Source: Coprobacter sp. (GTDB lineage Bacteria > Bacteroidota > Bacteroidia > Bacteroidales > UBA11471). Taken from it: 64,000 bases of DNA. The position numbers and the translations under genes are program-made. The notes under the pieces are model-generated. The model had not been told where the DNA came from. It saw only the letters and a list, made by a program, of their open reading frames with translations, and searched no databases. Positions within the stretch are counted from its first letter, which is position 1. Each line of letters starts with the position of its first letter. Below are positions 1,381 to 23,863 of this stretch, piece after piece. The stretch spans positions 1 through 64,000 of the forward strand of contig JAFTRN010000057.1 of the NCBI GenBank assembly GCA_017462265.1, written 5' to 3'.

Positions 1381-1405
1381 TCGTAACAATACCATCTATT
1401 ACTAC

Positions 1406-1436
1406 AAAGCCCCACACCATCACGATGCGGGGCTTT
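1406..1436. terminator. Bidirectional terminator hairpin
   Basis: Perfect 8-bp stem AAAGCCCC (1406-1413) / GGGGCTTT (1429-1436). It serves uxs on the plus strand and possibly the convergent DUF4407-like gene, whose stop is at 1443. Confidence 0.75.
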
Positions 1437-1442
1437 ATAGTT

Positions 1443-2420
1443 TCAAATACTTTCCAATTTATCACTCATAATATCACACAAGTCCTGTATCCTTTTTTCA
1501 TTCCTTCGTTGAACAAGAACATCATAATCACATTTACTTTCATTAAATTTACTAATGATTACAAGTAATTCTATCATAAGAAAGAATACAAAAAATGCAA
1601 AATACACGACCACTGCAACAATAGATTCTTTCAAAATACGCATCAATGCGTTCAACTCCATTAGTATTCCCGGATTAGCCTCATAGAATGCGACTTGTGC
1701 CTCTATCTTTTTTTCTCGCTCCATCGATTCATTATCTATTTTTTTATCCAGCTCCACTATATATGAATTAATCGCATCTAATCGATATTTAATAGGATTA
1801 TCAACAGACACATCTTTAGATGTAGAAACCCGTTCACGAACGACCGTATCTCCCCGTTGAACATTCTGGTATGTATGAATCCATTCTTTTTTAGTTATTT
1901 GAGGTTTTCTTTGATATTCTAAATATAATTTATCCGTCAAATCACTTAAAGAATCCTTTTCGTGCCTATACTCAGCCAATCTCACATTTGACTCTTGGAG
2001 TATTTTATCTCTAATAGTTTGCACTTTATCTATAGACAGTTCATTTACAGCATTCTTTATATCATTTCCAAAAATCATATTATCTACGACCAACGCTCCT
2101 ATCAAAGACATTACAAGTCCAAGTAAAAAGCGAAATATCGCAACGAAAACATTCTTTTTTTGCATCAATATTATCTGCCTCTCCACCATCAATATAATTA
2201 TAGAGCAGACAAAACCACACACAAGAGATATTACGATATCGGTTTTCATGTATTTTGTAGGAAACATAAATCCTATAAAAAACCACAATATCATAAGTAT
2301 TATTAATGCCGAAGTATATTTTGTTAGCATTTTACGGCTTGCCGGGGTACACTCTTTCAAGATTTCCTTATCCCAACCGATAAGAAAGCAACCGACTTTA
2401 TCCCATATTCCTATTTTCAT
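1443..2420 (-). CDS. DUF4407-like multi-pass membrane protein
   Basis: 325 residues. Three hydrophobic segments lie near residues 33-53, 62-80 and 92-112. A long charged, coiled-coil-rich region of about 120 residues follows, then a fourth segment near 268-290 and a short basic tail. The N-terminus (GIWDKVGCFLIGWDKEIL) and the topology recall the DUF4407 family, whose function is unknown. The start overlaps the stop of the upstream coiled-coil gene by ATGA, so translational coupling is likely. The gene is clearly A+T-richer than uxs and the glycosyltransferase around it, which suggests acquisition as part of the unit running to about 3.85 kb. A role as membrane effector or sensor of that unit is speculation. 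The family call is moderately sure. Confidence 0.6.
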   Translation of the reverse strand: MKIGIWDKVGCFLIGWDKEILKECTPASRKMLTKYTSALIILMILWFFIGFMFPTKYMKTDIVISLVCGFVCSIIILMVERQIILMQKKNVFVAIFRFLLGLVMSLIGALVVDNMIFGNDIKNAVNELSIDKVQTIRDKILQESNVRLAEYRHEKDSLSDLTDKLYLEYQRKPQITKKEWIHTYQNVQRGDTVVRERVSTSKDVSVDNPIKYRLDAINSYIVELDKKIDNESMEREKKIEAQVAFYEANPGILMELNALMRILKESIVAVVVYFAFFVFFLMIELLVIISKFNESKCDYDVLVQRRNEKRIQDLCDIMSDKLESI

Positions 2421-2974
2421 ATAGCTTTCTCTACTTCATTTTTACAATATTCCGAAACACCTTTCTTGAAACCCTGTTCATAGGTATTTACTATAAACGA
2501 AGCACATCTGCCTCTATCAAGTATCTCCTTCTCTATTTCCTTAATCTTGGTAATATGTGAATTAAATAGCTCCAATGTTTTGTTAAGTTTTTCCGTGGTC
2601 TCAATAAAACCCGATTGACGCATATGATCTATTTGTGCATTTACCAAAAGTATTCTGTCTTCATACAGGGTCTGTAATTTACGACATAATATTTGTATAT
2701 CAGATATTATAATCTCCTTTTGCTGTTCCTTATATAATGTATCGGGATTCTCAAGAGCATCTTGTAATCCCTTCTTCTCATAATTTTCAGCCAGGCGACT
2801 ATACAATTCGTAAATCGGATAACCCGTGGTTTCAGGTTTTTCCTCACTCGTAAACAGCTTTTGAAATCTGTCACTTTGCACATCTACACTTGGTGTTGAC
2901 GATGTAGGAATATTGCTATCTAAGACATCAATATCCTCTTCTACTTTCTTTTTGAATAAATCTAAAAATCCCAT
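2417..2974 (-). CDS. Coiled-coil protein of unknown function
   Basis: 185 residues, no signal peptide. It opens with a short amphipathic stretch (MGFLDLFKKK) that could sit on a membrane. A Ser/Thr/Pro-rich linker follows (about residues 20-45), and most of the rest (60-170) is charged helix with heptad-like spacing. I do not recognise the family. The gene lies one base beyond the stop of the broken HNH gene and overlaps the downstream membrane-protein gene by four bases, so the three were transcribed together. Because the partner has a long cytoplasmic-type coiled-coil region, the two products may interact; this is inferred from context alone. Confidence 0.65.
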   Translation of the reverse strand: MGFLDLFKKKVEEDIDVLDSNIPTSSTPSVDVQSDRFQKLFTSEEKPETTGYPIYELYSRLAENYEKKGLQDALENPDTLYKEQQKEIIISDIQILCRKLQTLYEDRILLVNAQIDHMRQSGFIETTEKLNKTLELFNSHITKIKEIEKEILDRGRCASFIVNTYEQGFKKGVSEYCKNEVEKAI

Positions 2975-2975
2975 A

Positions 2976-3266
2976 CTAAATATATATTATTGGTACTTGA
3001 TAATGATTATGTCCCTTTGCATGGCAGTATTCACATAGTGTTATCAAATTAATATCATCATACTCCCACGGCCGTTTGAATTCGTTTAATCTTTAAATAA
3101 AATGATATTGTCTATGATGCACCTCGAGTTTACACCCCGAGGCACCACATATAGCACATTTATTTCCATCTTTTTGTAAAATATCGGCTCTTCTTTTCTT
3201 CCATCGAGGGTCTAATAACTGTGCGTTGTACGATCCATGTACATCTATTCTATCTTTTCTCGCCAT
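2976..3266 (-). pseudogene. HNH endonuclease, interrupted by one in-frame stop
   Basis: Reading the minus strand from the ATG at 3266 gives a 96-residue HNH-type protein if one stop is read through. An N-terminal basic segment (MARKDRID...DPRWKKRR) is followed by the zinc-knuckle pair CAIC and the catalytic stretch LEVHH. Then come the usual KRPWEYDDINLITLC region and a second CEYCHAKGH. Codon 58 is TAA (3093-3095), right after HHRQYHFI; the frame is otherwise clean to the TAG at 2976. The motifs on both sides of the stop are intact, so the break looks recent, or it could be a sequencing error. The gene starts 10 bases after the stop of the truncated lipoprotein and ends one base before the coiled-coil gene. 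Confidence 0.8.
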
Positions 3267-3276
3267 AATATATTTT

Positions 3277-3489
3277 TTATACCCCGCCCTTATTCATAAA
3301 AAAATGGACTATGAACCGTTCGTTTTTTCCAATGGCAAGAAACAATTTTTCTTTGTTGAGTGAAATTTTTACACCGTCTGATTCGGTATCATCTCCACAG
3401 CCGGCAACAAAAACGACAATCATCGATAAGCAAAGGGCTTGCAGTAAAGTGCGTATGCCCCATTTTTTACAAGTACCGATACAATCCAT
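3277..3489 (-). pseudogene. Truncated BIG2-type surface lipoprotein (N-terminal stub)
   Basis: The open frame encodes 70 residues from the ATG at 3489. A hydrophobic signal (LLQALCLSMIVVFVAGC) with lipobox VAGC predicts lipidation at Cys31. Next comes a linker and VKISLNKEKLFLAIGKNERF, which reads as the first strands of a bacterial Ig-like (BIG2) domain. The sequence then breaks off after HFF into MNKGGV and a stop. Intact relatives carry a full Ig-like domain and more, so this is only the beginning of a gene, cut at about 3297 where the A+T-rich HNH/DUF4407 unit begins. Its promoter and long leader remain. An upstream in-frame extension to 3687 was rejected because it runs through the structured leader RNA. 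Confidence 0.65.
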
Positions 3490-3543
3490 AGTATATAGTA
3501 TCAAATGCCTATAGATTCCCCGATTCGGCACAACAATAAAAAA

Positions 3544-3641
3544 CAAAAAAAGACGTGGGATTCTAAACTCTTCGCTTATCCCGGTCTTCAGGCTCTCGCA
3601 TTGCCTACGCCTCGGAATAAGCAACACAGTCAGCCCACGTC
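3544..3641 (-). ncRNA. Structured leader RNA with terminator-like outer stem
   Basis: On the minus strand, GACGTGGG (3641-3634) pairs with CCCACGTC (3559-3552), followed at once by a T-run (3550-3544). Inside, GCTTATTCC (3622-3614) pairs with GGGATAAGC (3582-3574), and AGGC/GCCT (3606-3603 / 3593-3590) closes a nonaloop. The middle helix has a T-G mismatch that is a G-U pair only in minus-strand RNA, which supports that strand. It lies between a strong promoter and the lipoprotein stub and resembles an attenuator or riboregulator. I cannot tie it to a named RNA family. Confidence 0.6.
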
Positions 3642-3825
3642 GTGCGATATTACACACGCAGCAACAATGCATACGAATATAATACACCCAACGCAGACGT
3701 CGCGGTTGCGTATCTTTTGAGGCGTTTACAAATTTGCGAGATTTGAAGACCTAAAGATTACGTTTCGTAACGTCCTTTCACCACAATGTAGTTTTTGACC
3801 CGCCACCCACAAAGGGCTGACCGGT
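3642..3825 (-). other. Upstream part of the long leader, no gene
   Basis: About 180 bases between the probable transcription start (near 3825) and the structured element. No reading frame of substance is seen. Small helices are visible: a self-complementary GACCGGTC near 3819-3826, TTACG/CGTAA near 3760-3772, and CGTGTG/CGCACG just upstream of the main element. The whole 467-base stretch 3490-3956 is otherwise gene-free. Confidence 0.45.
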
Positions 3826-3830
3826 CGGCA

Positions 3831-3862
3831 CAAAGATAAGTTGAAATACCTAAATATCCAAA
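3831..3862 (-). promoter_or_regulatory. Promoter of the leader RNA / lipoprotein unit
   Basis: On the minus strand TTTG (3862-3859) is followed after exactly 20 bases by TATCTTTG (3838-3831), a full match to the Bacteroidota -33/-7 pair. It predicts a 5' leader of over 300 bases before the lipoprotein ATG at 3489. Confidence 0.75.
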
Positions 3863-3899
3863 AAATATCCGTCTTCTTGGTTCATAAATTCTTTTATAT

Positions 3900-3941
3900 A
3901 AGTAGCGGCTCCTCGCCGATACCGACGAGGAGCCGCTACTT
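3900..3941. terminator. Strong hairpin after the GT2 gene
   Basis: Perfect 16-bp stem: AAGTAGCGGCTCCTCG (3900-3915) with its complement at 3926-3941, loop of 10. It lies just past the stop of the minus-strand glycosyltransferase. The T-run is weak on either side. Confidence 0.7.
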
Positions 3942-3956
3942 ATTATGTCGTTTGGA

Positions 3957-4967
3957 TTATTTCTTTTTGTAGTGTTTGGCGAGTTCGGCTTCGCGATCGA
4001 CTTTGCGACGGAACACCACTTTGGTAATAAATGCCCGTAGGAATCCTATGCCATAGCCGCCGAGCTGTATGGTGCAGGTCACAAGCGACAGCAAGGCTAT
4101 GGGCAGACTGCGATTGCGGATAAGCGACTCCACGAAAAGCAGGGTGTAATAGGCTCCCAGCGGTGCCATGAGCCATTGCCACCATATTCCCCCCAAGAGC
4201 ATAGCCAGCACGCCTATCACGAAACAGGCCGGTAACAGATGTACCAACTTCAACGACTCGGGGTGCAGCAGATAGAGATCGACGCGAGCCATACCGAACA
4301 CATAGACCTGACGATAGAACGAGCGGAAACTCACCCTGCGCTTGTGATATACATAGGCGTCGCGATAGAGCGCCGTGGTAAACCCGGCATCGCGTATGCG
4401 CAACGACAGGTCGATATCCTCGCCGAACATATCGGCAAATCCCCCAACTCGCTCATACACCTCGTGCGAGAATCCCATATTGAACGTGCGTGGCGTAAAC
4501 TTCTCCATCGTGCCCTTGCCGCCACGTATTCCACCCGTGGTGAAGAATGAGGTCATGGCATAGTTGATGGCCTTTTGCAATCGGGTGAACGAGCTATGTG
4601 CCGCATCGGGCCCGCCGTAGCAATCGACCGGGCTCTCGATGAGGTGGCGATGCACCGTCTCGAAATAGGCCGGCGGTATGATGCAGTCCGAGTCGAAAAA
4701 TACAAGATAACGCCCCTCGGCTCGCTCCATACCATAGTTGCGGGTGAGACTGCGTCCCGAATTGTCTTTGTAGAAATAGCGTATCGTCAGTCTATCGGCA
4801 TATTCGCCGGCCACCTCGTCGCACCGACGGGTAGAGCCATCTTCGATAAGCAACACCTCGAAGTCTTTGCAGGTCTGCACGGCAAGACTTTCGAGCAACT
4901 CACGCACCTCATCGGGGCGATTATACACCGGGATTATTATCGAGAAAAAGGGCTTGGTATCACACAT
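3957..4967 (-). CDS. Family 2 glycosyltransferase, membrane-anchored
   Basis: 336 residues. The N-terminal GT-A fold begins with IIPVYNRPDEV. It has the metal-binding DSD at residues 92-94 and the acceptor-side GEDIDLSLR at 182-190. The last third holds about three hydrophobic segments (near 235-320) and a basic tail, so the catalytic domain probably faces the cytoplasm at the inner membrane. It would transfer a sugar from an activated nucleotide donor to a surface polysaccharide or lipid-linked intermediate; the donor cannot be read from sequence. It is divergent from the acyltransferase gene across a 138-bp gap, and both likely act in envelope glycan modification. The family call is firm and the exact substrate unknown. 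Confidence 0.88.
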   Translation of the reverse strand: MCDTKPFFSIIIPVYNRPDEVRELLESLAVQTCKDFEVLLIEDGSTRRCDEVAGEYADRLTIRYFYKDNSGRSLTRNYGMERAEGRYLVFFDSDCIIPPAYFETVHRHLIESPVDCYGGPDAAHSSFTRLQKAINYAMTSFFTTGGIRGGKGTMEKFTPRTFNMGFSHEVYERVGGFADMFGEDIDLSLRIRDAGFTTALYRDAYVYHKRRVSFRSFYRQVYVFGMARVDLYLLHPESLKLVHLLPACFVIGVLAMLLGGIWWQWLMAPLGAYYTLLFVESLIRNRSLPIALLSLVTCTIQLGGYGIGFLRAFITKVVFRRKVDREAELAKHYKKK

Positions 4968-23538: not shown

Positions 23539-23616
23539 TGGTGGGTGTTGACGGATTCGAACCGCCGACCCTCTGCTTGTAAGGCAGATGCTCTGAACCA
23601 GCTGAGCTAAACACCC
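23539..23616 (-). tRNA. trnV-TAC: tRNA-Val (anticodon TAC), copy 1
   Basis: Minus-strand cloverleaf: acceptor GGGTGTT/AACACCC, D-loop AGCTCAGCTGGTTCAGAGC, anticodon loop CTTACAA, and T-arm with GGTTCGAATCC. Discriminator A and an encoded CCA are at 23541-23539. Confidence 0.96.
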
Positions 23617-23667
23617 GATGAATATCCCCGAAGGGATAGGAGTATATATAAAGTTTATGAAAGATAG

Positions 23668-23742
23668 TGGGCGTTGACGGATTCGAACCGCCGACCCTCT
23701 GCTTGTAAGGCAGATGCTCTGAACCAGCTGAGCTAAACGCCC
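23668..23742 (-). tRNA. trnV-TAC: tRNA-Val (anticodon TAC), copy 2
   Basis: Same body as copy 1, but the acceptor is GGGCGTT/AACGCCC, a compensated base-pair change, and CCA is not encoded after the discriminator A. Confidence 0.96.
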
Positions 23743-23785
23743 GATATTCTCTCTCGGTAATCGTGGCAACGCCTTGCCATTTCCG

Positions 23786-23863
23786 TGGTGGGTGTTGACG
23801 GATTCGAACCGCCGACCCTCTGCTTGTAAGGCAGATGCTCTGAACCAGCTGAGCTAAACACCC
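23786..23863 (-). tRNA. trnV-TAC: tRNA-Val (anticodon TAC), copy 3
   Basis: Identical in sequence to copy 1, including the encoded CCA (23788-23786) and the immediate 3' flank. With spacers of about 45-51 bases, the three form one array, probably co-transcribed. The 23287-24018 gap holds no protein gene. Confidence 0.96.

Follow-up and report, generated by a model that had tools for sequence, protein, structure and literature searches.

A widespread, elaborately folded RNA of Bacteroidales with copy-specific loop pairings, a candidate attenuator leader of accessory operons

The stretch analysed here, referred to as the window, comprises 64,000 nucleotides (nt) of Coprobacter sp. (contig JAFTRN010000057.1, assembly GCA_017462265.1). 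On its minus strand lies one copy of an RNA of about 285 nt that has an elaborate fold and had not been catalogued before. The RNA is conserved as a structure with long-range pairings, has promoter boxes in front of it, ends in a terminator-like stem with a U-tract, lies before genes and is exchangeable between them. We lean towards the view that it is a cis-acting leader which controls accessory operons by premature transcription termination. More tentatively, we propose a class of self-interlocking leaders in which every copy would carry a private complementary code. Promoter, sensor and terminator would constitute an exchangeable module before unrelated accessory operons, and a second pairing would connect the terminator strand with the start-codon region.

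Fold and distribution of the RNA

The first-pass annotation of the window had described a minus-strand promoter TTTG-N20-TATCTTTG, about 180 gene-free bases, a three-tier fold and a lipoprotein stub. The promoter is present at 3862-3831. The fold was found with its outer stem of 8 base pairs (bp; P1) and T-run, its 9-bp middle helix (M) and its hairpin on a tetramer stem (B); the G-U pair announced for the middle helix corresponds to the single U-G (T-G) pair of M. The stub is there too, as an open reading frame (ORF) of 70 amino acids with its ATG at 3489. The 180 bases described as gene-free form a second large hairpin of the same RNA. The element therefore extends from 3830 to 3544, plus a hairpin at 3531-3505 (D4). 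The earlier reading had covered just the 3' third, without the 5' part and D4. The z-score of the minimum free energy (MFE) was -4.3 for the 3' domain (D3) and -7.1 for the whole 290 nt, and none of 200 shuffles equalled it.

All three tiers of the 3' fold are confirmed by covariation. In alignments fitted to the model, and hence biased towards it, 94.6 to 94.7% of the cells of the D3 helices formed standard pairs (two sets, 82 and 71 distinct copies), with double-sided changes in 17 to 19 of 24 pairs. The controls nonetheless differed widely: 0 of 500 shuffles reached the pairing level of D3, and sliding the partners destroyed the pairing. Helix P4 (GCAAC/GTTGC) was paired in 49 to 50 of 50 copies at most positions with few compensated variants. 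A protein-coding reading, based on an overlapping GTG ORF (3277-3687) that runs through the T-run, was rejected in view of the compensatory helix changes and the recurrence of the fold in 91 genomes.

The loops of the 5' domain D1 (o5, hairpin A, i5) and of D3 (i3, hairpin B, o3) complement each other and give three long-range helices, o, K and i. The complementarity score was 41.9 for a copy's own partner versus 29.9 (standard deviation 3.6) for swapped partners, and the own partner was the best one in 92 of 141 cases. Across about 50 copies a single cell of the 7-bp kissing loop between loops A and B was unpaired, and C-G, U-A, G-C and A-U pairs all occurred in it; the stem of hairpin A covaries. 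Within 17 multi-copy genomes a loop fitted a sibling copy as well as its own partner in 1 of 66 tests. The genome of the window itself has a second copy (C1:135974), located before an MBOAT-like gene (named by eye), in which the kissing loop is altered yet still matching. Covariation thus argues for each of the helices o, K and i; they may form simultaneously, or M, P1, o, K and i could be alternative states.

Among 132 pairs of copies with 78-98.5% identity, o and i changed at 0.29-0.36 per site versus 0.27 for the free hairpin D2. That their rate is as high as or above that of D2 although both strands must change is suggestive of diversifying selection, with the proviso that the copy pairs are non-independent. 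Helices that change fast and yet stay matched would probably prevent cross-pairing between paralogous leaders of the same cell.

Blastn against 40 relatives detected copies in just two other genomes. Such matches are few because the sequence of the RNA evolves fast, and a covariance model was therefore needed. Model R1 was built from four sequences of the 3' domain and matched at full length (E<=0.01) in 91 of 393 Bacteroidales genomes, i.e. about a quarter, with up to nine copies per genome. The covariance-model search proposed by the first-pass annotation thereby recovered considerably more than a hundred homologues of full length within Bacteroidales, and compensatory changes were seen in the outer, the middle and the apical helix. 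In a draw of 395 genomes from the phylum only two matched, both Bacteroidales, and the RNA was not found in the approximately 389 sampled genomes of the phylum outside Bacteroidales. A pattern scan of genome contigs added at least 116 further loci, in which variation of loop B is under-sampled because the pattern fixed one loop-B sequence. Barnesiella, Bacteroides bouchesdurhonensis, B. rodentium, Paraprevotella clara, Xylanibacter and Prevotella are among the loci listed. After removal of duplicates the working set consisted of 180 distinct copies. At L191:890-977 and L175:933-1020 the 3' domain also scored on the opposite strand (28-35 bits; the sense strand scored much higher), because it is nearly palindromic in some copies.

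Rfam 15 gave no gathering match in the window except tRNAs, and nothing at E<=10 for positions 3400-3960. The 19 homologue loci compared with it produced 10 matches at E<=10, all far under the gathering scores of their own families. The earlier statement that the RNA could not be matched to a named family thus holds for the window copy and these loci. A published screen of human microbiomes lists thousands of candidate structured RNAs (PMC8040213), and an unnamed entry of that screen may overlap the family described here.

Table 1. Features of the RNA and of the ORFs behind it in the window
Feature	Position	Strand	Basis or remark
Promoter, TTTG (3862-3859)-N20-TATCTTTG (3838-3831)	3831-3862	minus	sequence; upstream TAnnTTTG
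5' hairpin D0 (GGTCAGCCC...GGGTGG)	3797-3829	minus	folding, alignment; varies between copies
Segment a (GAAAGGACGTTAC); partner local arm H1 (3756-3764) or 3' end ACGTCTTTT	3767-3779	minus	covariation, MFE
5' domain D1, stem ATCTTT/AAAGAT around large loop	3712-3758	minus	own-versus-swapped complementarity
D1 loop segment o5, GGTCTTC	3751-3745	minus	
D1 hairpin A, loop TCTCGCA	3744-3730	minus	stem covaries
D1 loop segment i5, ACGCCTC	3725-3719	minus	
GCAAC, partner of GTTGC 3625-3621 (helix P4)	3705-3709	minus	covariation table
Variable hairpin D2, separates D1 from D3	3644-3692	minus	MFE, alignment
3' domain D3	3552-3641	minus	pairing and covariation; models R1/R2
D3 outer stem P1, 8 bp, GACGTGGG / CCCACGTC	3641-3634 / 3559-3552	minus	followed by TTTTTTT
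D3 middle helix M, 9 bp, GCTTATTCC / GGGATAAGC	3622-3614 / 3582-3574	minus	single T-G (U-G) pair
D3 segment i3, GAGGCGT	3613-3607	minus	
D3 hairpin B, AGGC/GCCT stem, loop TGCGAGA	3606-3590	minus	
D3 segment o3, GAAGACC	3589-3583	minus	
T-run (seven T), makes P1 intrinsic-terminator-like	3544-3551	minus	U-tract statistics
Hairpin D4, loop GGGGAATCTA, between terminator and start codon	3505-3531	minus	permutation test
Lipoprotein stub, 70 amino acids, first downstream ORF (ATG at 3489)	3277-3489	minus	
HNH-like ORF, 57 amino acids, adjoins truncated lipoprotein	3093-3266	minus	named by eye, no Pfam match
ORF, 185 amino acids	2417-2974	minus	
DUF4407 protein	1443-2420	minus	

Genes behind the RNA and the proposed attenuation

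The box TAnnTTTG was present upstream of 156 of 171 copies (184 matches versus 34 expected), and at least six T occurred in the 9 nt after P1 in 133 of 144 copies. An ATG-started ORF on the same strand followed 170 of 180 copies, counting ORFs of at least 60 amino acids or shorter ones cut by a contig end; its median distance past the T-run was 67 nt with the bulk at 42-104 nt, values given without a formal control. In the gap between T-run and ORF, TAnnTTTG was not enriched (6 found versus 11.8 expected). Because promoter boxes precede the RNA, none are enriched in the gap and the U-tract is strong, the gene seems to rely on read-through of the terminator. At the motif level the copies have the arrangement expected of an attenuator leader, namely an upstream promoter, an intrinsic terminator and a gene without its own promoter. 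The first-pass annotation had offered an attenuator or a stand-alone regulatory RNA; as promoter boxes are not enriched in the gap, the attenuator leader is favoured.

In such a leader transcription would start at the TTTG/TAnnTTTG promoter, and the nascent RNA would fold into the big hairpins D1 and D3 with their loops interlocked via o, K and i. As the combination of P1 and U-tract suggests, RNA polymerase would halt at the T-run when P1 has formed. Prevention of P1, e.g. by capture of its 3' strand by segment a, would let the polymerase read into the operon. Once the polymerase has read through, the 3' strand of P1 would be free in the mRNA and could pair with the D4 loop before the start codon, and this pairing may hold the leader ON or tune translation.

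The pairings of the P1 3' strand on which this scheme draws were visible in the alignments. The covarying pairs between segment a and the P1 3' strand were formed in 49/49 and 47/49 cases, compared to 37/49 and 46/49 for the alternative a/a', which makes segment a a possible antiterminator strand. The D4 loop of a copy is complementary to that copy's own P1 3' strand (CAGACTCCCG/CGGGAGTCTG in L155, for example); over 176 copies the own mean was 17.9 versus 15.5 for permuted partners with a permutation z of 13.6. A stem around the D4 site was above threshold in 65% of the copies versus 26% of shuffled controls, and the site ends at a median of 22 nt upstream of the ATG. In the window copy the loop GGGGAATCTA is only imperfectly complementary to TAGAATCCC (3565-3557, terminator 3' strand), which, along with the truncated gene, fits decay in this single case. 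Because the polymerase reaches D4 only once it has passed the point of termination, D4 would be expected to act post-transcriptionally or as a lock.

Several points speak against the attenuator leader. D4, being made after the terminator, cannot influence the first pass of the polymerase in cis, so that the conservation of D4 may have no bearing on attenuation. Segment a covaries with the local arm H1 as well, which leaves it a merely putative antiterminator. The analysis of the gap covered the TAnnTTTG motif only, and promoters of other kinds could sit there. The analysis revealed neither a conserved ligand pocket nor a leader peptide or a trans factor.

The strong terminator, the compact and closed fold and the complementarity of D4 would also suit a stand-alone small RNA (sRNA) that always ends at the T-run and acts in trans, its seed being GAYUCCC at the foot of P1 and its main target the D4 loop in the 5' untranslated region of the neighbouring gene. 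Multicopy sRNA families whose members bind close to start codons are known in Bacteroides: FopS and GibS are paralogous sRNAs, and FopS target susC-like mRNAs in trans by way of a shared seed (PMC11697453). The FopS family is characterised by an R1 seed and homology to GibS. Like the present RNA these sRNAs form a multicopy family in Bacteroidaceae; in contrast to them, going by the description of FopS, nearly all copies of the present RNA stand directly before a gene. We consider a trans-acting sRNA unlikely on account of three observations: TAnnTTTG is not enriched in the gap, where a separate mRNA would have to start, half of the seed lies buried in P1, and seeds common to many paralogues would provide poor specificity in trans, while pairing within one molecule needs none.

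Of 170 first downstream proteins 110 look exported, compared with 132 of 400 background ORFs, as judged by a simple hydrophobicity and lipobox rule. The proposed recurrence upstream of lipoprotein genes was borne out in part: the RNA recurs a short way before start codons, and the genes are often those of lipoproteins or other exported proteins, but it is not lipoprotein-specific. The downstream proteins fall into 63 Pfam families among 129 proteins, BspA-type LRR being the commonest. One conserved fold before many unrelated genes is typical of second-messenger riboswitches. In one version of the attenuator leader the signal could be a small ligand that binds to D1/D3, in line with this arrangement and with the conservation of GCAACG and of the kissing loops. 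On the other hand, much of the RNA is variable, the helices o and i included, and the downstream genes have no common function; we regard a metabolite-binding riboswitch as improbable.

Two kinds of small proteins recur behind the RNA. HTH (helix-turn-helix)-like proteins (MHIGxLI...GRTVTWFAxxL..., by eye) were seen in distant genomes (L060, L082, L058, L171, L032 and L026) and might regulate the leader. The other kind, small proteins that contain cysteine and have the N terminus ELQSRREFFKKAAKGALPILG (L048, L059, L069, L071, L100, L108, L116 and L146), resembles secreted peptide precursors.

Exchange of the module

The window copy heads a 2.57-kb insert (1381-3954) between an epimerase and a glycosyltransferase gene. 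In five relatives the same two flanking genes are approximately 47-110 bp apart and the insert is absent. The notable ORFs of the insert all follow the RNA on the minus strand. The stub aligns with the first ~60 residues of a 540-residue Big_2 lipoprotein behind copy L129, an alignment that identifies it as a truncated remnant of such a protein, and the insert seems to be in decay. A second site lies between a phosphorylase-like gene and hisS: two relatives carry the RNA plus one gene there, and the genome of the window carries a different gene, apparently msrA, without the RNA (gene names by eye). Leaders that are 80-91% identical over ~300-430 nt precede unrelated proteins; their similarity begins near the promoter and stops between T-run and D4. 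Target-primed insertion was rejected, as the flank is complementary to the 3' end of the RNA and not a repeat of it.

IS110 bridge RNAs, which are encoded next to an IS110-type recombinase, have two loops carrying paired variable segments. The present RNA likewise has two loops, each with two variable segments flanking a constant hairpin. A leader of a cassette or mobile system whose RNA guides the exchange of downstream genes would fit these loops, the near-identical leaders before unrelated genes with their similarity limits, and an insert missing from five relatives. Yet the variable segments are complementary to each other, and 7-mers of o/i were hardly commoner in a copy's own flanks than those of other copies (76 versus 67.8), so that a DNA-guide reading was dismissed for lack of a clear excess. 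Blastp clustering of 984 neighbouring ORFs, on which no IS110 profile search was run, revealed no recurrent recombinase-like cluster beside the copies, and no copy was detected in viral contigs, plasmids or phages with one exact pattern and two blastn queries. We judge a guide RNA of this kind very improbable.

Comparison with known systems

In type III toxin-antitoxin systems of the ToxIN type a pseudoknotted RNA and a terminator lie upstream of a gene on the same strand. These systems have tandem RNA repeats before one toxin family, whereas the full-length alignment contains a single RNA unit and the 63 Pfam families lie downstream. GOLLD, ROOL and OLE are large ornate bacterial RNAs, and kissing loops are discussed in PMC12286853; compared with them the present RNA is shorter, and it matches no Rfam model. 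With transcription attenuators and riboswitch leaders that have an intrinsic terminator it shares the order of promoter, structured leader, terminator and gene without a detected promoter box. It differs from known attenuator leaders in its length of about 285 nt, in two interlocked loops whose complementary helices change rapidly, in the extra hairpin before the start codon that is complementary to the terminator strand, and in its unrelated downstream genes. A leader with a terminator would thus be a known mechanism, while the architecture, the private codes and the module-like spread appear to be new. If the attenuator leader is correct, a quarter of the sampled Bacteroidales share an undescribed RNA switch before accessory, often exported, proteins, which would offer one handle on when gut bacteria express horizontally acquired genes. 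The fast-changing, always-matched helices would represent a natural set of orthogonal RNA locks.

Two further features of the window were recorded. Between the glycosyltransferase gene and the promoter of the RNA there is a near-perfect long inverted repeat (3900-3943, AAGTAGCGGCTCCTCG...CGAGGAGCCGCTACTT), which is probably the terminator of the glycosyltransferase gene. Three consecutive tRNA-Val (TAC) genes are located on the minus strand at 23539-23863.
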